Shown: positions 24,230 to 33,574 of the stretch, in pieces | Numbering within the stretch: the first letter of the stretch is position 1 | Layout of the letters: each line of letters starts with the position of its first letter | Origin: Mesorhizobium sp. | GTDB taxonomy: Bacteria > Pseudomonadota > Alphaproteobacteria > Rhizobiales > Rhizobiaceae | Direction: 5' to 3' | Assembly (NCBI GenBank): GCA_022833215.1 | Contig: JAIPUZ010000005.1 | Location: forward strand, 59,557-123,556 | DNA length: 64,000 nt | Notes under the pieces: model-generated | Told to the model about the DNA's origin: nothing | The model's input: the letters and a program-made list of their open reading frames with translations, nothing else | The model's database searches: none | Made by a program: the position numbers and the translations under genes

Positions 24230-24991
24230 ATGACCATTCAGGAGCGCGACATCATGGGCGGTCTGGCCAAGGGGCTGGCGGTGATCGAGACCTTCACCGC
24301 GGATCGTCCACGCCAGTCGATCTCGGAAGTCTCGGCCGCCTCCGGGCTCGACCGGGCAACGGCGCGGCGCTGCCTGCTGACACTGGCCCATCTGGGTTAT
24401 GCCGATTACGATGGCAAGTTCTTCACCCTGAAGCCGCGCGTGCTGCGGCTGGGCACCGCCTGTCTCGCCACCATGCCCCTGCCCCAGCTCGTCCAGCCCC
24501 TGCTCGATGCGCTTTCCGAACAGCTCGGCGAAAGCTCCTCCGTGTCGATCCTCGATGGAACGGACATCGTGTATGTGGCTCGTGCCGCTCAGAAAAAGGT
24601 GATGTCGATTGCCCTGATGCCCGGCTCACGCCTGCCCGCCTATTGTACCTCCATGGGCCGGGTGCTGCTCGCTGCCCTGTCGGGCGATGAGGCGCGCGCG
24701 CTTCTTTCGTCAACGCCCTTGCCGGCCCGCACCCCGCACACGCTGACCGCGCCCGAAGCGATACTGGCAGAACTGGAGCGTGTGAGAGACCGGGGTTATG
24801 CGCTGATCGATCAGGAGGTGGAACTTGGCCTGCGCTCCATTGCCGTGCCGCTGTTCAATGCGCGGGGGCTGGTGGTCGCAGCCGTCAATGTCGGCGTTCC
24901 GGCCATGCAGGTCGGCGTGGGAGAGCTTGTCCCCCTGTATTTCGAGGCGCTGCGCGGCCTTCAGTCGAACCTGCGTACCGTTCTGAGATAG
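24230..24991 (+). CDS. pcaR: IclR-family regulator PcaR
   Basis: A 253-residue regulator with an N-terminal winged helix (SISEVSAASGLDRATARRCL) and the IclR effector domain (SSSVSILDGTDIVYVARA, PAYCTSMGRVLLAAL). The family controls pca genes with 3-oxoadipate as inducer. It lies 137 bp from divergent pcaIJF and begins 13 bp after the second operator arm, suggesting autoregulation. The alternative, PobR, is less likely since no pobA is nearby. Confidence 0.93.
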   Translation: MTIQERDIMGGLAKGLAVIETFTADRPRQSISEVSAASGLDRATARRCLLTLAHLGYADYDGKFFTLKPRVLRLGTACLATMPLPQLVQPLLDALSEQLGESSSVSILDGTDIVYVARAAQKKVMSIALMPGSRLPAYCTSMGRVLLAALSGDEARALLSSTPLPARTPHTLTAPEAILAELERVRDRGYALIDQEVELGLRSIAVPLFNARGLVVAAVNVGVPAMQVGVGELVPLYFEALRGLQSNLRTVLR

Positions 24992-25061: not shown

Positions 25062-26627
25062 TTATTTTCCGGCCAGCGCATGCAGCGCGTTGACGTCGCC
25101 CGGGTTGATGAGGTCCTTCGCCACCCAGCCCTTGAGGTCGTACTCGGCCATGCAGCGGCGTGCCATGTCCTGAAGCACCTCCAGTTCGCCGGTGGCCTGT
25201 GCGGTCAGCAGCGTCTCGATGCGCAGATTGTCCTGGTTGCCGGCGTAGTTGCGCTCGTAGAGTTCGTGGCGGCCACCGAATTCCGAACCGATTGCGTCCC
25301 AGAGCAGCTTCAGCAGCTTCACCCTGTCGATGGCCGCATAGCCGTTGGAGCCGCGCACAAAACGGTCGAGATAGGGCCGGATGGCCGGGCTCTCGAAATC
25401 GGCCGCCGAGGACGGAAGGTAGATCAGGCCCGACGCGACATGCTGCTCGATCAGTTCCTTGATCTTCGGATAGGCGAGCGGGGCCAGCACACGATAGGCA
25501 AGGCCGTAATTCATGTTCGGCAGATTGTAGCCATCCGTGCCATGCCAGGGGATGGGCGACTTCACCATTGCATCGGCAAGGCCGTGGAAGGTGTTGCGCC
25601 ACGCCAGCGCTTCACCGACCGCCGCCTGCACACCCCGGAAGGTGGACGAGCCCGTCGCATCGACCGCCATGGAGAACAGGCCGGCGATGAAATCGAGCTT
25701 TACCGCGAAGCGCGACACGCCATGCAGCGTGAAGCGCGGCACGAAGCCGGAGGCCGGGAAGAAGGCGTTCACCTTCTCCGCATCGCCATAGATGAAGATG
25801 TTCTCCCATGGCACCAGCACCTTGTCGAAGACGAGGATGGAATCGTTCTCGTCGAGGCGCGACGACAGCGGATAGTCGAAGGGGCTGCCCATCACCGCGG
25901 CCTGTGCCTCGTAGGACTGGCGGGCGATGAGCTTGACGCCATCGGCATCCATCGGAACGGTGAAGATCAGGGCGAACTTCTTGTCCTTGATAGGAATGCC
26001 GTAGTGAGCAATGAAATTGTAGTGCGTGAGCGCCGAGCCGGTGGCCACCACCTTGGCGCCCGACACGATCACGCCGGCATCGGTCTCGCGCTCGACATGC
26101 ATGAACACGTCCGCAACCTCCTCGATGGGACGGTCGCGGTCGATCGGCGGATTGACGATGGCATGGTTCCAGTAATCGAGCCGCTGCTGCGTGCGGTTGT
26201 ACCAGTTGCGCGCGTTGGCGGCATATTCGCCGTAGAAGGCCGAGTTCGCGCCCAGCGTTCCCAGGAAACTCGCCTTGTAGTCCGGTGAACGGCCCATCCA
26301 GCCGAATGCGGGCTGCTGCAGATCCATGATTGCAGCCTTCGATTTCACGAGGTCTTCCGAGGTTTTCGACCCGAGAAAGAAGGGATGGGTGAGCTTGCCC
26401 GAGCCATTGTCGCAAGGCACGCCGATCTCTGCCTTGTTGGCGTGAAAGCGGTCATACCAGCGCGCCACCATGCGCGCCGAATTGCGGAATGCAGGATGCG
26501 TCGTCACGTCCTTGACGCGCTCGCCATAGATGTAGATCTCGCGGCCGTCGCGGATGCTTTCGAGGAATTCGCTGCCCGTGTAGGCGTCTGTCTGGCCGGC
26601 GGTGATGTCAGGATTGATCTGGTCCAA
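25062..26627 (-). CDS. Flavin-dependent aromatic monooxygenase, HpaB/PheA1 family
   Basis: Oxygenase component of a two-component FADH2-dependent hydroxylase (521 residues) of the 4-hydroxyphenylacetate 3-monooxygenase family, whose members ortho-hydroxylate phenols. Family signatures: [49 protein letters not shown] and [13 protein letters not shown] place the start at a TTG (26627) because GGGAGGA lies four bases upstream and homology begins there (MDQINPD); the ATG at 26711 would add 28 unlike residues and cover the promoter. A stand-alone FAD synthetase and a flavin reductase are divergent neighbours. Substrate unknown; phenol to catechol fits the ring-cleavage genes nearby. Confidence 0.88.
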
Positions 26628-26684
26628 GGTTTCCTCCCGTGCTGGATCGGGCTGAACTCTCTCATCACCCTGGCGCTTCCATAA

Positions 26685-26700
26685 GGTATCGTGCCTTACC
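26685..26700. promoter_or_regulatory. Palindrome GGTAT-N6-TTACC in divergent promoter
   Basis: GGTATCGTGCCTTACC lies between the monooxygenase gene and the divergent FAD synthetase gene. It is a near match (one base off) to two perfect GGTAT-N6-ATACC sites at 32167 and 32209 and to a site at 28887, so it is likely bound by a shared CatR-like LysR regulator. Confidence 0.6.
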
Positions 26701-26787
26701 TGCACGGGCATTGCCGCGAACCGCCTCCTTCGTCAGCCTGAAACCATTCGGCGATCATGCCGCCAGCGTCGGGAAGGAGGAGTCCGG

Positions 26788-27414
26788 ATGCCAGCATCGC
26801 TATCGCGCACCCCGGTTTCAGCATGCCCAACCTCGGGTGCGTGTCCCTCGGATGCATGCATCGCCATCGGTGCCTTCGACGGTGTCCACCTCGGTCATCA
26901 GGCGGTGATCGGTTCCATGCTGCGCCGGGCGCGCTCGCAGGGGATGGCCGCGCTTGTCCAGACCTTCGATCCGCTGCCCAGGGTGGCGTTCGGACGCGGC
27001 CGGCCGATCTGCTCGCTTGCCGAACGCGTGGCGCGTCTTTATGCACTCGGCGTCGACCGGGTGCACGTGGCGGGCTTCACGCCCACTTATGCCGCCCGCC
27101 CCGCCGAAGCCTTCCTCGACGATCTGAGCGAACTGGGTGTGCGGGAAGTCTATGTCGGCGAGGATTTTCGCTTCGGTCACGGCCGTGCCGGTGACCTCGC
27201 GCTGCTGGCCACCCGCTTCAGGGTGACGACCGCCGAGAGCGTCACCTGCCCACGAGGCGAGCGCATTTCATCCACCCGCATACGCGGCCTGCGCGCCAGC
27301 GGCCAGACCGGGGCGGCGCGCGCCCTGCTCGGCCTTCTGCCCGGCGCCTTTGCTGTTGTGCAGGAGGCTGCGGCCCAAAACCTTTCTCCCCTCGATCTGG
27401 AGATGTTGTCGTGA
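26788..27414 (+). CDS. Stand-alone FAD synthetase (RibF N-terminal domain only)
   Basis: A 208-residue protein matching the FMN adenylyltransferase domain of RibF: IAIGAFDGVHLGHQAVIGSM carries the nucleotide-binding (G)xFDGxHxGH motif, followed by VQTFDPLP, YVGEDFRFGHGRAGD and the ISSTRIR motif. The C-terminal riboflavin kinase domain of normal bifunctional RibF is absent. An AGGAGG lies ahead of the ATG. It overlaps the flavin reductase by 4 bp, so it probably supplies FAD to the two-component monooxygenase. Known RibF chemistry supports the activity; its dedicated role is inferred. Confidence 0.88.
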   Translation: MPASLSRTPVSACPTSGACPSDACIAIGAFDGVHLGHQAVIGSMLRRARSQGMAALVQTFDPLPRVAFGRGRPICSLAERVARLYALGVDRVHVAGFTPTYAARPAEAFLDDLSELGVREVYVGEDFRFGHGRAGDLALLATRFRVTTAESVTCPRGERISSTRIRGLRASGQTGAARALLGLLPGAFAVVQEAAAQNLSPLDLEMLS

Positions 27415-27917
27415 CCACGATGGCCCAAGCGCTCGACGCCCCCCCTCTCGATGCACGCGAATTTCGCAATGCCTGCGGCGGTTTCAGCACCGGCGTGACC
27501 GTGATTTCCACCCGCTGCGGCGAAGGCGAGCATGCCATGACCGCCAACGCCTTCATGTCGATCTCGCTCGACCCGCCGCTCATCGCCATATCGCTTGCCG
27601 ATACGGCACGCATGCTGCCGCGGCTGCGCGCCGCCGGCGCCTTCGCCGTCAGCGTGCTGCGCGAAGGCATGGAGGACATCGCCTGGCATTTCGCCGGCAA
27701 GCCGCGCATCGAAGGCCCCGTGCCCTTCACCGAACTTGGCGGGGTGCCGGTGATCGATGAGGCTGCCACCGTTTTCGTTGCCGATGTCCACAGCGAGATG
27801 ACGGCAGGCGACCATGTCATCGTCGTCGGACATGTGCATTCCATGCGCAGCGATCCGCAGGCGCGGCCCCTGCTTTTCCACGGCGGACGCTTCGCCTGCC
27901 TGCCGGAGGTGGCGTGA
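27411..27917 (+). CDS. Flavin reductase, HpaC-like component
   Basis: NAD(P)H:flavin oxidoreductase of 168 residues with the flavin-reductase split-barrel signature: ACGGFSTGVTVISTRCGEG, AMTANAFMSISLDPPLIAIS and FAVSVLREGM. It would provide reduced FAD to the HpaB-type oxygenase encoded divergently. The GTG at 27411 gives a 4-bp overlap with the FAD synthetase; ATG 27420 is an alternative. A LysR gene follows 16 bp later. Confidence 0.92.
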   Translation: MTTMAQALDAPPLDAREFRNACGGFSTGVTVISTRCGEGEHAMTANAFMSISLDPPLIAISLADTARMLPRLRAAGAFAVSVLREGMEDIAWHFAGKPRIEGPVPFTELGGVPVIDEAATVFVADVHSEMTAGDHVIVVGHVHSMRSDPQARPLLFHGGRFACLPEVA

Positions 27918-27933
27918 CGATGCCGGGGGCGAG

Positions 27934-28878
27934 ATGAGCGCCGAAGACGGTGCGAACACGGCACAGCCCTTCGACATAAGGCGGCTGCGCTACTTCCTCG
28001 CCGTGGCGCGCGAGCTGCATTTCGGCCGTGCGGCCGACCGGCTGGGCATTGCCCAGCCGCCGCTATCACGGATGATCGCGCAGCTCGAACGCGATCTCGA
28101 CGTGCAGCTCTTCGACCGCAGCCGCAGCCAGATCGCACTCACCCAGGCGGGAGAGCTTCTGAAAACGCGGGCAAGCTGCATCGCCGAGGAAATCGAGCGC
28201 GCCGTTCGCGATGTGCGCCTCGTCGGCAAGGGCGGCTCGGGCGTGCTGCGCGTCTCGTTCGTCGGCTCGGCCACGCACGGCCCCTTCCCCACCCTGATCA
28301 AGCGCTTCCGCTGCGCTTTTCCCGAAGTGGACCTTCGGCTCAGCGCCATGAACAACGCCGAGTCCCACGAGCAGCTCATCACCCGGGCCATCGACGTGGC
28401 TCTGGTGCGGCCGAGCCTCGACGACGCCACCTTGCGCCAGCAGCTTTTCGTCGAGGAGCCACTGGTGGCGGCCGTGCATGAGAGCGCTGCGAAGGAGCTT
28501 GGCCGCTCGATTCGCCTCGCGGCGTTGAGGGACCAGCCCTTCGTGCTGTTTCCACGCAAGCCGCGTCCCTGCTTCGCCGACATGGTGCTGGGCCTTTGCA
28601 ACGAGGCCGGCTTCCAGCCGCCGCAGATCGTGTGGGCACCGGACTACCAGACCGCGATCAGCCTCGTGGCGGTTGGCGAGGGCATCTCCATCGTGCCGGC
28701 CTGCTGCGAGGCCGCGCACCGGCCGGGCGTCAGCTTCTGCCATCTCAGCGACGAACAGGCCCGCACGCACCTGTCGATCTGTGCCCGCACCGACAACCAG
28801 AGCCCGCAGGTGTTCAAGTTCCTCGACTTCGCCCGGTCCTTCGCACGCTCCCTCGTCAACGGTCAGGCGGCGGCATGA
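27934..28878 (+). CDS. LysR-family regulator, CatR/BenM type (first of two)
   Basis: A 314-residue LTTR. The N-terminal helix-turn-helix is ELHFGRAADRLGIAQPPLSR, and the effector domain starts VSFVGSATHGPFPTLIKRF, typical of the CatR/BenM/ClcR group that responds to muconates. It sits between the flavin reductase and catB on the same strand. A close relative lies beyond catB on the opposite strand. One or both probably bind the GGTAT-N6-ATACC sites. Confidence 0.9.
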   Translation: MSAEDGANTAQPFDIRRLRYFLAVARELHFGRAADRLGIAQPPLSRMIAQLERDLDVQLFDRSRSQIALTQAGELLKTRASCIAEEIERAVRDVRLVGKGGSGVLRVSFVGSATHGPFPTLIKRFRCAFPEVDLRLSAMNNAESHEQLITRAIDVALVRPSLDDATLRQQLFVEEPLVAAVHESAAKELGRSIRLAALRDQPFVLFPRKPRPCFADMVLGLCNEAGFQPPQIVWAPDYQTAISLVAVGEGISIVPACCEAAHRPGVSFCHLSDEQARTHLSICARTDNQSPQVFKFLDFARSFARSLVNGQAAA

Positions 28879-28886
28879 TGCAGTGC

Positions 28887-28902
28887 GGTATCGCGTCAGA
28901 CC
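28887..28902 (+). promoter_or_regulatory. GGTAT-N6-AGACC site upstream of catB
   Basis: GGTATCGCGTCAGACC lies in the 98-bp gap before catB, one base different from the GGTAT-N6-ATACC palindrome found elsewhere in the cluster. It could give catB its own regulated promoter in addition to read-through from the upstream genes. Confidence 0.5.
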
Positions 28903-28976
28903 CGCCGAGTATTGGACAATCCGGCGCGCCACCTCGAAACTTGCAGCATCGATTGCATTGAAGAAACGGGCGCGAC

Positions 28977-30125
28977 GTGATCACCATCGACCATATCGAA
29001 AGCATCATCATAGACGTGCCGACGGTGCGCGGCCATGTCCTGTCGATGACGACCATGATGACCCAGTCCGTCGTGCTGGTGCGTGTCCGCTTCTCGGACG
29101 GATCGGAAGGCTGGGGCGAAGGTGCCTCCATCGGCGGCCTCTCCTACGGCCCCGAAAGCGTGGAAAGCATCAAGCTGGCCGTCGACAGCTATATCGCCCC
29201 GGTGCTGCTGGGAAGGGACGGCGACCGCATCGCCGCCGCTTCCGGCCTGATGGCGCGGGCGGTGAAGGGCAATCACGCGGCCCGCGCGGCTGTCGAAACC
29301 GCGCTCTGGGACGGCCTTGCCCGCCGCCTCGGCACATCCGTGGCCCAGCTTTTCGGCGGCCGCATCCACGAGCGGCTGCCGGTGGCCTGGACGCTCGCCT
29401 CCGGCAACAGCGAAACCGACATTGCAGAGGCCGAGCAGATGCTTTCCGAACGCCGGCATCGCGATTTCAAGCTCAAGATCGGCAAGCGCAAGGTGAAGGA
29501 AGACCTCGCCCATGTCGCGGCCATTGCCCGCGCCGTCGGCGACCGCGGCACCATCCGCGTCGACGTCAACCAGGCGTGGAGCCTGACCGAAGCCCGCTAT
29601 GGCGTGAAGGGCCTGCAGGAGATCGGCTGCGTGCTGGTCGAGCAGCCGGTGCCGCGCGAACGTCTCGACGGCTTGCGCGCCCTCACACAGGGCTATGAGA
29701 TAGCCATCATGGCCGACGAGGTGCTGCAAGGCCCCGCAGACGCCATGCGCGTGGCGGCCGAGCGCGCTGCCGACGTCTTCGCCGTCAAGGTCTGCCAGTC
29801 GGGCGGGCTGATGCCGGCCGCCGAGGTCATCGCCATCGCGCGGGCCGCCGGCATCGGCCTCTATGGCGGCACCATGCTGGAAAGCGGCCTTGGAACGGCG
29901 GCGGCCGTGCAGCTTTTCGCCACCGTGCCGGAACTGGCATGGGGTACGGAACTGTTCGGTCCTCTGCTTCTGACCGAGGAAATCCTCGCCGAACCGCTGG
30001 ACTATCGCGACTTCTCCGTAGCCGTCCCGACCGCACCCGGCATCGGCGTCGCGCCCGATCCGGACAAGGTGAAATTCTACCGCCGCGACCGCAGCGACAC
30101 CTTGCGTGCCGTCGGCGCTCCCTGA
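28977..30125 (+). CDS. catB: Muconate cycloisomerase CatB
   Basis: Enolase-superfamily enzyme of 382 residues that turns cis,cis-muconate into muconolactone. It aligns closely with CatB of pseudomonads: EGASIGGLSYGPESVESIK, AWTLASGNSETDIAEAEQML, the catalytic lysine motif FKLKIG, metal ligands in RVDVNQAWS and IMADEVL, and TELFGPLLLTEEIL. The start is a GTG. Its TGA shares the palindrome TGATCA with the stop of the convergent LysR gene. Confidence 0.94.
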   Translation: MITIDHIESIIIDVPTVRGHVLSMTTMMTQSVVLVRVRFSDGSEGWGEGASIGGLSYGPESVESIKLAVDSYIAPVLLGRDGDRIAAASGLMARAVKGNHAARAAVETALWDGLARRLGTSVAQLFGGRIHERLPVAWTLASGNSETDIAEAEQMLSERRHRDFKLKIGKRKVKEDLAHVAAIARAVGDRGTIRVDVNQAWSLTEARYGVKGLQEIGCVLVEQPVPRERLDGLRALTQGYEIAIMADEVLQGPADAMRVAAERAADVFAVKVCQSGGLMPAAEVIAIARAAGIGLYGGTMLESGLGTAAAVQLFATVPELAWGTELFGPLLLTEEILAEPLDYRDFSVAVPTAPGIGVAPDPDKVKFYRRDRSDTLRAVGAP

Positions 30126-31013
30126 TCAGACGACCTTGCGCGCCACCTTTTGCGCAAGCGTCACGAAATTGTGGACGTGGATGCCCTGCTCGTCGATGCG
30201 GTGATTGACGGAAATGCCTGTGCGTATCGTCAGGCCGGCGATCTCGTGATAGCGCACGCCGTTACGCTGCGCCGTGCCCACAGACGCCGGCACAAGCGCT
30301 ACCCCCTCGCCCACCGAGACCAGCGCAATCGCCGTCTGGAAATCCATGGTGAAGACCCGGCGCGAGGTATCCGCGCCCACGCTCTCACAGGCGGCGATGA
30401 CCACATCGGCGAATGATGGGCGCGGATATTCAGGGTAAAGAATATAGCTCGGCTGGCCGAGATCGGGCAGCGAAACCGGGCCGGGCGTGGTGATCAGCGC
30501 ATCGGGAGCGGCCAGCACCAGCGGTTCGTCGATGAGCTTGCGGGTGACGATTTCGCTGTCATTCAGCGCGGGGCGGGCGATGGCGATGTCGATGTCGCGG
30601 CGGATGAGCGAGCGCTGCAGCTGGGCGTTGTTCATAGGCACCAGCGAAAGATTCACCTCCGGCCAGGAGGCGCGGAACGATTTCAGGATGGTCGGCAGCA
30701 TGCCGTAGGTGGCCGAACCGACGAAGCCGATGCGCAACCGTCCCTCGGCCCCCTGTCCGATGCGCCTGATCTCCAGCCTGATGTCGCCCAGCTCCGCCAG
30801 CAGGGCCGAGCCGCGCTCATAGAAGCGCTCACCGGCCTGCGTCAGCGAAATGGCGTTGCGGCCGCGATTGATGAGCTGCGCACCGAGATCGGCCTCGATC
30901 TGCTGGATCTGCCGCGAAAGCGGCGGCTGCGCCATGCCCAGCCTTTCGGCGGCCCGGCCGAAATGCAGTTCCTCGGCAAGTGCGATGAAATATTCGATCT
31001 GCTTCAGGTTCAT
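30126..31013 (-). CDS. LysR-family regulator, CatR type (second of two)
   Basis: A 295-residue LTTR clearly paralogous to the other one: ELHFGRAAERLGMAQPPLSR in the helix-turn-helix and IGFVGSATYGMLPTILKSF in the effector domain. It ends immediately beside catB, convergent with no spacer. It lies just downstream of the intradiol dioxygenase gene on the same strand but beyond a terminator, so it probably has its own promoter at 31014-31131. Confidence 0.9.
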   Translation of the reverse strand: MNLKQIEYFIALAEELHFGRAAERLGMAQPPLSRQIQQIEADLGAQLINRGRNAISLTQAGERFYERGSALLAELGDIRLEIRRIGQGAEGRLRIGFVGSATYGMLPTILKSFRASWPEVNLSLVPMNNAQLQRSLIRRDIDIAIARPALNDSEIVTRKLIDEPLVLAAPDALITTPGPVSLPDLGQPSYILYPEYPRPSFADVVIAACESVGADTSRRVFTMDFQTAIALVSVGEGVALVPASVGTAQRNGVRYHEIAGLTIRTGISVNHRIDEQGIHVHNFVTLAQKVARKVV

Positions 31014-31094
31014 GCGTTTGCTCCCTGCGCCCCAAGCTGACGAAATGCCGTGAGCATGGCAAGCCACGCGTCTGGGCCGCTCCCAACGCAAAAT

Positions 31095-31117
31095 GCCGCG
31101 CCCTTTTGGGGCGCGCC
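31095..31117. repeat. GC-rich hairpin, near copy of the adjacent terminator
   Basis: GCCGCGCCCTTTTGGGGCGCGCC forms a hairpin nearly identical to that at 31141-31162, 46 bp away. It may be a duplicated terminator; it lies between the dioxygenase terminator and the second lysR gene. Confidence 0.5.
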
Positions 31118-31132
31118 GGATCGGGCCAGCGC

Positions 31133-31162
31133 AAAAAAAAGCCGCGCCCTTTGGGGCGCGGC
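31133..31162 (-). terminator. Terminator of the intradiol dioxygenase gene
   Basis: On the minus strand a perfect stem GCCGCGCCC/GGGCGCGGC with a short loop is followed by eight T. It lies 34 bases past the dioxygenase stop codon. Confidence 0.92.
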
Positions 31163-31196
31163 AGTGGCAGCACAACAGTCTGTCTTGGGAATTAGC

Positions 31197-32072
31197 TTAT
31201 TCGGCTGCCAGTCTCTGCTCCTCGGCGTGCGGCTTCAGTGTGAAGTCGAAGCGGACATAGAGATCGGTATCGTCGCCCGGCCGGCCCTTCTCGAACTTCG
31301 CGACAAGGCTGTTCTTGACCGCGAAGACAGAGTCCTCGTCCAGCCACGGGCTGTCGGCGTCGAAGACCTGACTGACCAGCGTGCGGTAGCCGTCCTTGGC
31401 GAGGATGAAGTGGAGGTGGCCCGGCCGGTTCGGGTGATGGCCCATATAGCGGATGAGTTCGCCCGCGGTCTCGTTGTCCGGGATCGGATAGGGCACCGGG
31501 CGCACCGCACGCAGAACGAAATGGCCATCCTCATCGGTCTCGAAACGGCCGCGCAGATTGTATTCGGGCTGGTCCGGATCGTGGTTCTCATAAAGCCCGT
31601 TCGGCGCGTCTTCCCATATATCGAGCGTCACGCCCGCAAGCGGCTTGCCTTCCGTATCGGTGACATAGCCTTCGACGAGCACGGTTTCCTCGTCGTCGAA
31701 ATGCTTCTGCACGGTCGACGCGCCCTTGGGCAGAACCGGCGGATTCTCACGGTAGAACGGCCCGAGCACAGTGGATTCGCTCTCGCTGCCGTCGATAGGG
31801 TTGGACAGCATGTCGACCAGAACCTCGACGCCCAGAATGTCGCCGAGCAGGATGAACTCCTGACGCTTGTCGTCACACACCTTTCCGGCCCGGGCGAGGT
31901 AGTCGCAGGCCTGAAGGAATTCGTGGTGCTGAAGCTTCACGTCACGGCAAAACCCATGCAGATGCCTGAGCAGCGACGTCATGATCTCGCGCTGACGCGG
32001 CGAGATTTCGCCATGCCTGCCAAGCGAGTCGATAACGGCGTCGGTGACTGTGTCGATGGTTACGTTGCGCAT
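31197..32072 (-). CDS. Intradiol ring-cleavage dioxygenase (catechol or hydroxyquinol 1,2-dioxygenase)
   Basis: Fe(III) intradiol dioxygenase of 291 residues. The N-terminal dimerisation domain has LLRHLHGFCRDVKL and DDKRQEFILLGDILG. The catalytic domain has STVLGPFYRENPP, TLDIWEDAPNGLYE, a tyrosine in PEYNLRG and histidines in RPGHLHFIL. PVPYPIPDNETAG and LDEDSVFAVKNSLV resemble hydroxyquinol 1,2-dioxygenases more than classical CatA. However, catB and two CatR-type regulators nearby argue that the product is a muconate that can cyclise. Both readings remain open; the reaction type is secure. Confidence 0.9.
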   Translation of the reverse strand: MRNVTIDTVTDAVIDSLGRHGEISPRQREIMTSLLRHLHGFCRDVKLQHHEFLQACDYLARAGKVCDDKRQEFILLGDILGVEVLVDMLSNPIDGSESESTVLGPFYRENPPVLPKGASTVQKHFDDEETVLVEGYVTDTEGKPLAGVTLDIWEDAPNGLYENHDPDQPEYNLRGRFETDEDGHFVLRAVRPVPYPIPDNETAGELIRYMGHHPNRPGHLHFILAKDGYRTLVSQVFDADSPWLDEDSVFAVKNSLVAKFEKGRPGDDTDLYVRFDFTLKPHAEEQRLAAE

Positions 32073-32166
32073 GCCTATCCTCCCGGGTCTGCGATCACGG
32101 GCCCTGCCTGCCCGCTGTACCGTCCCAACTATTCATGCCACCCCCGGCCCCGCCAATGCACCGTCC

Positions 32167-32224
32167 GGTATTGCCCGATACCCCCGCCCTGCGGGCCTGC
32201 CGCATACCGGTATCGGGGCATACC
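32167..32224. promoter_or_regulatory. Two GGTAT-N6-ATACC palindromes in divergent promoter
   Basis: GGTATTGCCCGATACC (32167-32182) and GGTATCGGGGCATACC (32209-32224) start 42 bp apart, four helical turns, between the dioxygenase gene and the divergent SCP2-like gene. The second overlaps a perfect ATACCGGTAT palindrome (32204-32213). ATAC/GTAT half-sites are typical of CatR/BenM-type LysR regulators, so a tetramer bridging both copies is plausible. Confidence 0.72.
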
Positions 32225-32318
32225 CCGGCCAGCATTGCCAGAGAGCTGCGACTGCTCTTGATGGAATGATGCCGCATTGCTCCGGACACGTCGATGCGGC
32301 CTGGAGGACAAACATACC

Positions 32319-32705
32319 ATGCTGGAAACCCTGTTGACGATGCAGCAGCGGCTCGATGCCTCGCCGCACCTCCTGCGCCTTGGAAAGCTGTTTTGCGAAA
32401 CCGTGCTCATAGAGGTCGAGGACCTGTCATTCTATCTGCAATTCCGCGACGGGCATCTCGTGTCGATCACGCCCGGCCCCTCCGCCAAAACACCCTGGCG
32501 CTTCGCGCTGCGCACCGACAAGGCGGCGCTGGCTGCTTTCTGGGAGCCGGTGCCGAGGCCCGGATTCCACGACATATTCGGACTGGTGAAGATCGGTCGC
32601 GGCCGCATCGACGGCGATATACTGGCGTTGGTCAAGAATCTGCGCTTCTTCAAGGAGTTCATGGCGCTGGGCCGTCCGGCCACCGGCGAGGAGAAGCCGG
32701 CATGA
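32319..32705 (+). CDS. SCP2-like sterol-carrier-domain protein (128 aa)
   Basis: Small cytosolic protein with features like an SCP2 fold: alternating strands in VEDLSFYLQFRDGHLVSITPG, the alanine-rich helix TDKAALAAFWEP, and KIGRGRIDGDILALVKNL. CTGGAGGAC precedes the ATG. It overlaps the alpha/beta hydrolase gene by 4 bp, so the pair is co-translated and controlled by the double palindrome upstream. SCP2-type domains bind hydrophobic ligands. Here it may bind a pathway intermediate, but no catalytic role can be read. Confidence 0.6.
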   Translation: MLETLLTMQQRLDASPHLLRLGKLFCETVLIEVEDLSFYLQFRDGHLVSITPGPSAKTPWRFALRTDKAALAAFWEPVPRPGFHDIFGLVKIGRGRIDGDILALVKNLRFFKEFMALGRPATGEEKPA

Positions 32706-33574
32706 CGTTCGAACCGATCGAGGGAGGCTATCTCCACGTCACCGTCGCCGGACGCGCGCAGCGCATTTATGTCGAGATGGCCGGTGAAGGCCGTCCCGTC
32801 CTGTGCCTGCACACGGCCGGTGCGGACACACGGCAATGGCGGCATATCCTGAACGATGCCGACCTTACAGGGTCGCACCGCTTCTTCGCCTTCGACATGC
32901 CATGGCACGGCAAGTCACTGCCGCCACAGGGCTTCGAGACGGAAGAATATCTGCTCACAACGGAAGCATATATCGAGACGGTTCTGGCGGTCGCCGATGC
33001 GCTGTCGCTGGACAGGCCCATTCTCGCCGGCTGCTCGATGGGCGGGCGCATCGCGCTCCAGATTGCGGCGCTGCATCCCGAACGATTTTCGGGTTTCATC
33101 GCCATCGAAGCCTCGGATTTCCAGCCGGCCTGGTACGACATCGACTGGTTCCACCGGCCAGATGCTCATGGCGGGGAAATGGGGGCAGCCCTCGTTTCCA
33201 CCAATATTTCACCCTACGCGCCGCCGGCGGACCGCTGGGCGACTCTGTGGATGTTCATGCAATCCGGCCCCGGCGTGTTCCGTGGCGACCTCTCCTTCTA
33301 CACGAAGGATGCGAGCCTGATCGACCGCCTCGCCATGATCGACACCAGCCGCACGCCGGTGCATCTGCTGGTGGGAGCCTATGACCTGACCTGCACACCG
33401 GACGATGCAAGGCGGACCGCCGATGCCATTGCCGGTGCGACGCTGACGGTCATGCCGGAGCTCGGACACTTCCCCATGTCGGAGCATCCACAGGCGTTCC
33501 GCCCCTACTTCAACGATGCGCTGAAGCGTATGGGCGAAGGCGCGGGACACCTGAGGGAGCGCCCGCGCCCGTAA
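32702..33574 (+). CDS. Alpha/beta hydrolase, possible lactone hydrolase
   Basis: Cytosolic hydrolase of 290 residues. The oxyanion loop is LCLHTAGADTRQW, the nucleophile Ser112 lies in AGCSMGGRIAL, and the catalytic His is in PELGHFPMSEHP. FDMPWHGKSLPP matches meta-/ortho-cleavage hydrolases in general. In this cluster the needed activity is enol-lactone hydrolysis to 3-oxoadipate (PcaD/CatD role), but the sequence is not a clear PcaD, so the role is inferred. Coupled to the SCP2-like gene. Confidence 0.75.
   Translation: MTFEPIEGGYLHVTVAGRAQRIYVEMAGEGRPVLCLHTAGADTRQWRHILNDADLTGSHRFFAFDMPWHGKSLPPQGFETEEYLLTTEAYIETVLAVADALSLDRPILAGCSMGGRIALQIAALHPERFSGFIAIEASDFQPAWYDIDWFHRPDAHGGEMGAALVSTNISPYAPPADRWATLWMFMQSGPGVFRGDLSFYTKDASLIDRLAMIDTSRTPVHLLVGAYDLTCTPDDARRTADAIAGATLTVMPELGHFPMSEHPQAFRPYFNDALKRMGEGAGHLRERPRP

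Follow-up and report, generated by a model that had tools for sequence, protein, structure and literature searches.

The box and the genes of the Mesorhizobium cluster

The window analyzed here, a stretch of 64,000 nucleotides from Mesorhizobium sp. (assembly GCA_022833215.1, contig JAIPUZ010000005.1, positions 59,557 to 123,556), carries a gene cluster for aromatic catabolism in which a palindrome, GGTAT-N6-ATACC (hereafter the box), stands at four sites. All four sites reported in the initial annotation are present and no further copy with up to one mismatch occurs in the 64 kilobases, as against a mean of 0.18 and a maximum of 2 in 100 shuffled versions at the same tolerance. Because a CATTGG or CATTGC element stands at a fixed distance downstream, both the direction of a copy and the gene it serves can be assigned individually. 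The perfect copy at 32167..32182 (minus strand), with CATTGG at 32158-32153 (+24 to +29) in a layout that recurs in relatives, is assigned to the gene for an intradiol dioxygenase, and the perfect copy at 32209..32224 (plus strand), with CATTGC at 32233-32238, to an operon encoding a protein of the sterol carrier protein 2 (SCP2) fold and a hydrolase. The one-mismatch copy at 26685..26700 (plus strand), with CATTGC at 26709-26714, is assigned to the operon of a FAD-synthetase-like protein, a flavin reductase and the regulator LysR1, and may act on hpaB, on its other side, too. The second one-mismatch copy, at 28887..28902 (plus strand), lies upstream of catB and is followed by TATTGG at 28910-28915, one base closer than at the other copies. 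In both cases the nearest relatives preserve the halves together with their mismatch (our handles L, G and C denote loci, genomes and contigs): GGTAT and AGACC of the catB copy in all four (L016, L017, L018, L072), and those of the copy at 26685 in all three (L016, L017, L018). The claim that all transcription units of the cluster share the motif was too wide, in that no copy with up to one mismatch is found in the window at iclR, pcaIJF or lysR2.

The genes neighboring the four sites agree with their earlier description. An HpaB-type flavin monooxygenase, recognized by family and domain matches, is encoded at 25062..26630 (minus strand). It is followed by a FAD-synthetase domain protein (26788..27414, plus strand; domain matches), which lacks a match to the riboflavin kinase domain and fits only the adenylyltransferase part of RibF, a flavin reductase (27411..27917, plus strand; domain matches) that is the probable partner of HpaB, and LysR1 (27934..28878, plus strand), a second BenM-like regulator with 43% identity to LysR2. 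The muconate cycloisomerase CatB (28977..30125, plus strand) is identified by NCBIfam TIGR02534 with 495 bits against a cut-off of 335, and LysR2 (30126..31013, minus strand) is BenM/CatM-like by its domain matches and its alignment with BenM. The closest solved relatives of the dioxygenase (31197..32072, minus strand) are PnpC and the hydroxyquinol 1,2-dioxygenases. Between its gene and lysR2 a sequence scan recovered a terminator-like hairpin with a T run (31141..31162, minus strand), near which a similar GC-rich inverted sequence is present. The SCP2-fold protein of 128 residues (32319..32705, plus strand) is encoded between the dioxygenase and a PcaD-like alpha/beta hydrolase (32702..33574, plus strand), which matches PcaD models at scores under their cut-offs and is probably an enol-lactonase. 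Further away, at 24230, an iclR gene of the PcaR/PcaU/PobR family adjoins pcaIJF.

HpaB and its reductase are probably the source of catechol in the window. The FAD-synthetase-like gene accompanies the flavin reductase and HpaB in several loci. In Aquamicrobium defluvii (L072) a near-identical cluster is seen, in the fetched stretch, without hpaB, the FAD-synthetase-like gene, the reductase and lysR1; it retains the catB box and possesses one additional box. From this comparison with the window the hpaB module looks accessory.

Conservation and genomic company of the box

The box was followed through the best 80 of 499 loci with relatives of the dioxygenase, drawn from one scan and mostly from Rhodobacterales; upstream counts use 77 of these, L068, L070 and L075 having too short an upstream stretch. 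Of the 77, 64 have a perfect box in the 350 bases preceding the dioxygenase gene and 73 have one with up to one mismatch (58 of 61 non-redundant regions), nine having exactly one mismatch and two more (L041 and L052, both AGTAT-N6-ATACT) having two. Control spacings of N3, N4, N5, N7, N8 and N9 yielded no perfect case and a single one-mismatch case overall in the same 77 loci. For paralogous dioxygenases (40-47% identical) from a family search, 26 loci were fetched, and none has the box. The position, direction, spacing, conservation and gene company of the boxes can be read directly from the sequence.

Searches at the genome level, for a degenerate form of the box and for Pfam PF02426, cover 39 genomes (all box genomes except that of L018). 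The degenerate box recovered 57 forward hits as against 3 for the reversed control, with 8 of the 39 genomes having no hit at that strictness. For seven of the 57 (G000:C17, G156:C2, G168:C9, G174:C43, G180:C1, G185:C2 and G186:C11) no pathway gene was recognized in the fetched stretch, several of them falling within reading frames, and three further hits (G176:C72 at 33009, G177:C3 at 618188 and G184:C1 at 466197) lie 1.5-3 kilobases from a catB relative without an assigned promoter. A composite pattern, allowed up to one mismatch, has matches in all 39 genomes, many of the one-mismatch matches lying outside the cluster in a background-like manner.

In relatives, boxes also occur upstream of catB, hpaB/iclR, and genes for solute-binding proteins of the TRAP and ABC types. 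In two Celeribacter genomes and one of Thioclava the box stands between benA and a LysR gene whose product is 33-35% identical to LysR2 (ben genes named by eye), and ben genes in box clusters were confirmed on annotated plasmids. An hpaB relative is present in 13 of 40 box genomes (E-value up to 1e-150), with an identity of just 48% in one of them. Since the boxes and dioxygenase relatives occur with genes for benzoate dioxygenase (ben), catechol is most likely the substrate of the dioxygenase here, despite its nearest likeness to hydroxyquinol dioxygenases. Beside the hydrolase a beta-keto acid cleavage enzyme is encoded in L076 (6735-7571, by Pfam) and, by eye, in L054, L020 and L046; in some Rhodobacterales it is a possible alternative end of the pathway.

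Predicted promoter anatomy and a possible third half-site

Two further conserved features emerge when 66 non-redundant dioxygenase upstream regions are aligned on the box (its core being invariant through the way the sites were selected): an A..T pair at +50/+54 and, closer to the box, CATTGG at +24 to +29. On the side of the SCP2-like gene, the other box of the divergent pair is followed at an equal distance by CATTGC, and L061 possesses a single box with the element on both sides. Among sites chosen for ATT or ATGG at +25 (54 and 41 non-redundant sites on the two sides), G at +22 occurs in 70% and 87%, and C at +24 in 81% and 87%, respectively. We read the conserved columns as a putative -35 (TTGG) and -10 element with a spacer of 17 bases, which would place the center of the box near -54. 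In the window, the promoter so predicted for the dioxygenase (32128..32158, minus strand) would comprise CATTGG at 32158-32153, a -35 TTGGCG at 32156-32151, the 17-base spacer, and a -10 AATAGT at 32133-32128, with a putative transcription start at about 32121. A scan of 26600-33000 with a strict sigma-70 consensus gave no match.

The element downstream of the box also suggests a third half-site. ATACC-N6-GNYAT is present in 42 of the 77 regions, no other spacing between 0 and 24 giving more than 2, and ATACC-N6-GGTAT with up to one mismatch in 37 of the 77, compared with 1, 4 and 0 for N4, N5 and N7. The operator could thus be written as GGTAT-N6-ATACC-N6-GGYAT, the third half-site being weaker and running into the -35 element.

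We propose a switch on the basis of this layout. The box would lie about 54 bases upstream of the transcription start and two helical turns (about 21 bases) before a weak -35 element, TTGG or TTGC, with half-sites 11 bases apart in alternating direction. At rest the regulator would hold the outer pair, GGTAT-N6-ATACC, and with inducer, probably cis,cis-muconate or a related compound, it would use the inner pair, ATACC-N6-GGYAT, and recruit RNA polymerase. What we infer in this scheme is the identity of the promoter elements, of the binding protein and of the inducer, and the switch itself. A sequence rule of a box, 8 bases and YATTGS finds this catechol regulon in alpha-proteobacteria and tells which gene each copy serves.

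Which regulator reads the box

The local regulon with a common operator, as originally proposed, is supported by the conservation of the box and the company of genes that it keeps. We consider it very likely, on these comparative grounds, that a LysR regulator of the BenM/CatM kind, with LysR2 as the most likely candidate, uses the palindrome as its operator and activates the catechol ortho-cleavage genes in many alpha-proteobacteria. The initial annotation had named one or both LysR proteins as likely readers; a LysR protein of the BenM/CatR type does appear the likely reader, binding by either one being presumed. LysR2 is preferred over LysR1 because most box genomes contain close relatives of it and few contain those of LysR1. 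A LysR2-like protein is present in all 40 box genomes (E-value up to 1e-55), and a LysR relative of more than 45% identity lies within the flanks of 77 of the 80 loci. The five genomes of lowest identity (48-49%) carry LysR1-type proteins, four by their place in a tree and L048, which the tree does not cover, by best hit. Both proteins possess the HTH_1 and LysR_substrate domains, and the AQPPLSRQIQ stretch of LysR2, which we take to be the recognition helix, is identical in BenM in our alignment. Neither reaches the cut-offs of the strict BenM and CatM models (NCBIfam NF040709 and NF040710): LysR1 and LysR2 score 148 and 137 bits with the BenM model (cut-off 600), and 130 and 124 bits with the CatM model (cut-off 580).

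Several observations weigh against this assignment. A motif equally common at unrelated promoters had been named as what would speak against a local regulon, and a scan of the whole genome with the 16-bp motif in part went that way, the bare pattern not being enriched: perfect copies number 3 as against 2 for the reversed control, and copies with up to one mismatch 31 as against 50. Loci of the LysR1 type keep the box with, for example, TCTGGC in place of CATTGG, and in relatives the boxes at benA and at hpaB/iclR lack CATTGG. The conservation of the third half-site is not fully separable from that of the -35 element. L065 has a box and no LysR gene in its flanks, its LysR lying elsewhere in the genome, and the gamma-proteobacterial loci L094 and L095, with dioxygenases 45-47% identical, have neither box nor LysR. 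The loci were sampled around the dioxygenase, so that the universal LysR neighbor is in part a sampling effect, and lysR2 itself is without a box in the window. We judge the site to be real because of its local concentration and its conservation, and not because of its frequency across the genome. The third perfect copy in the genome was rejected as a member of the regulon; it sits inside an open reading frame at another place in the genome, and no CATTG element follows at +24.

The alternative that fares best, and is compatible with an operator for LysR2, is that both LysR proteins read the boxes or divide them, LysR1 taking the hpaB module and LysR2 the rest. It remains tentative, rather on the doubtful side: loci of the LysR1 clade without LysR2 also carry the box, and the two proteins, at 43% identity, have similar DNA-binding domains, whereas the +24 element differs in LysR1-clade loci and the four boxes of the window have YATTGG or CATTGC. 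It is unlikely that the true reader is some other regulator, encoded away from the cluster in all these genomes, and that the LysR gene is a mere neighbor. Such a regulator would account for the want of a box at lysR2 in the window and for a LysR gene found beside the very gene used for sampling, but boxes adjoin other LysR genes at benA too, and the half-site words are those of CatR and BenM. A reader of the IclR family, either the PcaR-like protein encoded at 24230 or the protein encoded beside hpaB in relatives, appears slightly less probable still. In several relatives the hpaB box falls between hpaB and an iclR gene, and according to parts of PMC8222616 sites of this family are palindromes, many with GT...AC ends. 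However, by-eye comparison shows that the box fits neither GKTYCRYW3-4RYGRAMC nor TGRAACAN1-2TGTTYCA, as given in the same parts of that paper, and the IclR protein of the window, of the PcaR/PcaU/PobR family, is encoded beside pcaIJF, where the box is absent. With the hpaB-type protein in only 8 of 40 box genomes (E-value up to 1e-15), an IclR protein was rejected as the general reader. That the palindromes are due to chance, or have a structural role, for example as a terminator or a repeat family, has a negligible probability, for although the bare pattern is no more frequent in the genome than its reversed control, fixed spacing and direction are kept across Rhodobacterales and Hyphomicrobiales.

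The SCP2-fold protein and the missing CatC step

The gene assigned to the second box of the divergent pair encodes a protein for which an AlphaFold model (pLDDT 92) displays the SCP2 fold, in common with sterol carrier protein 2 proteins such as 2cx7 and the SCP2 domain of UbiJ. It differs from these in having no Pfam SCP2 match and in its context of ring-cleavage pathway genes. In 40 sequences of the family His84, Asp85, Arg94 and Lys106 are invariant, and none of the 40 matches Pfam SCP2 or PF02426, the CatC family, at E-values up to 1. The gene is present in 35 of the 40 box genomes, being absent from G159, G170, G181, G185 and G187. PF02426 has no match in 34 of the 39 genomes searched (G000 included) and is matched, always above the Pfam cut-off, in five. 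Two of these matches are strong, one in G159 (E-value 1.3e-36), without the SCP2-like gene, and one in G162 (2.4e-40), in a separate conventional cluster of a genome that has the SCP2-like gene as well; the others (G155, G172, G180 and a second in G162; 2e-13 to 6e-17) have no dioxygenase or catB nearby. In all, some PF02426 match accompanies the SCP2-like gene in four genomes.

The LysR1-type genomes G170, G181, G185 and G187 have neither the SCP2-like gene nor a CatC match. In three of these four a GST-like gene follows the dioxygenase and a divergent cycloisomerase (L069 by Pfam; L048 and L084 by eye), and this GST-like protein may be the enzyme of the isomerase step in L048, L069 and L084. 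Among 151 family genomes a profile of the SCP2-like protein matches 10 (E-value up to 1e-5), four strongly (below 1e-57) and six weakly, and PF02426 matches 13 (up to 1e-20), these including none of the four strong SCP2-like genomes and two of the weak ones (G014 and G084); since chance would give no more than about 0.3 overlaps between the strong sets, this non-overlap alone shows little. Distant relatives of the protein (28-40% identical) are encoded on plasmids of Rhodococcus, Peribacillus, Agrobacterium and Martelella.

For the missing step, that of a muconolactone isomerase, the SCP2-like protein is our leading candidate. The boxes might then be the signature of a different catechol branch that is widespread among Rhodobacterales and a part of the Hyphomicrobiales, with an SCP2-fold protein replacing CatC under a BenM-like regulator reading reversed half-sites. 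We hold this isomerase reading at somewhat below even confidence because no such isomerase with an SCP2 fold is known to us, with little literature searching behind this statement.

Comparison with known systems

A counterpart of the cluster is found on plasmid p5SUD7 of Sulfitobacter sp. D7, where a LysR gene, the dioxygenase, an SCP2-like 'hypothetical protein' and an alpha/beta hydrolase are similarly arranged around a divergent box pair; it differs from the window in having benABCD in place of hpaB and a single LysR gene. At +24 the divergent boxes are followed by CATTGG and CATGGC, and the catB gene of the plasmid is preceded by a box with one mismatch. Parts of PMC9873259 report that this bacterium grows on benzoate and that all genes of the catechol branch except that for CatC were found, BenM being named. 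The 'hypothetical protein' (WP_120352654.1), encoded next to the dioxygenase and ahead of the hydrolase, is the SCP2-like protein, and it does not appear by tag, accession or name in the main text of that paper. A branch with the SCP2-fold protein for CatC would, if true, explain the growth of Sulfitobacter D7 on benzoate without CatC, and a specific unannotated gene is pointed to for a step reported missing in a benzoate-growing marine bacterium.

The initial annotation had likened the box to the ATAC/GTAT motif of CatR/BenM regulators. The half-site words are indeed identical, but their order is reversed, making the box a variant and not that site itself. As described in parts of the respective papers, CatR/ClcR sites read AkACC-N5-GGTAT (PMC6449761) and BenM/CatM sites ATAC-N7-GTAT (PMC6628147). 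The half-sites of the box point outward (GGTAT-N6-ATACC, T-N10-A), whereas those of CatR/BenM point inward (T-N11-A), which likewise tells against the assignment; an inward pair occurs at the box only as ATACC-N6-GGYAT, one base longer than in CatR/BenM. The canonical inward site was rejected as the true operator, ATACC-N5-GGTAT being perfect in only 1 of the 77 regions as against 64 for GGTAT-N6-ATACC. Both kinds coexist in G162, in which the SCP2-type cluster (L036) has outward boxes and the conventional cluster (L233, with benABCD, catA, catC and catB; ben and catA named by eye) has, in the gap that separates catB from a LysR gene, the perfect inward site ATACCCTCAGGGTAT. The likeness to the CatR, ClcR, CatM and BenM systems extends to the regulator class with AQPPLSRQIQ, the ben and cat genes and, possibly, a second element running into the -35 region. 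A class of BenM-like regulators with reversed CatR half-site words would bear on the choice of DNA by LysR tetramers.

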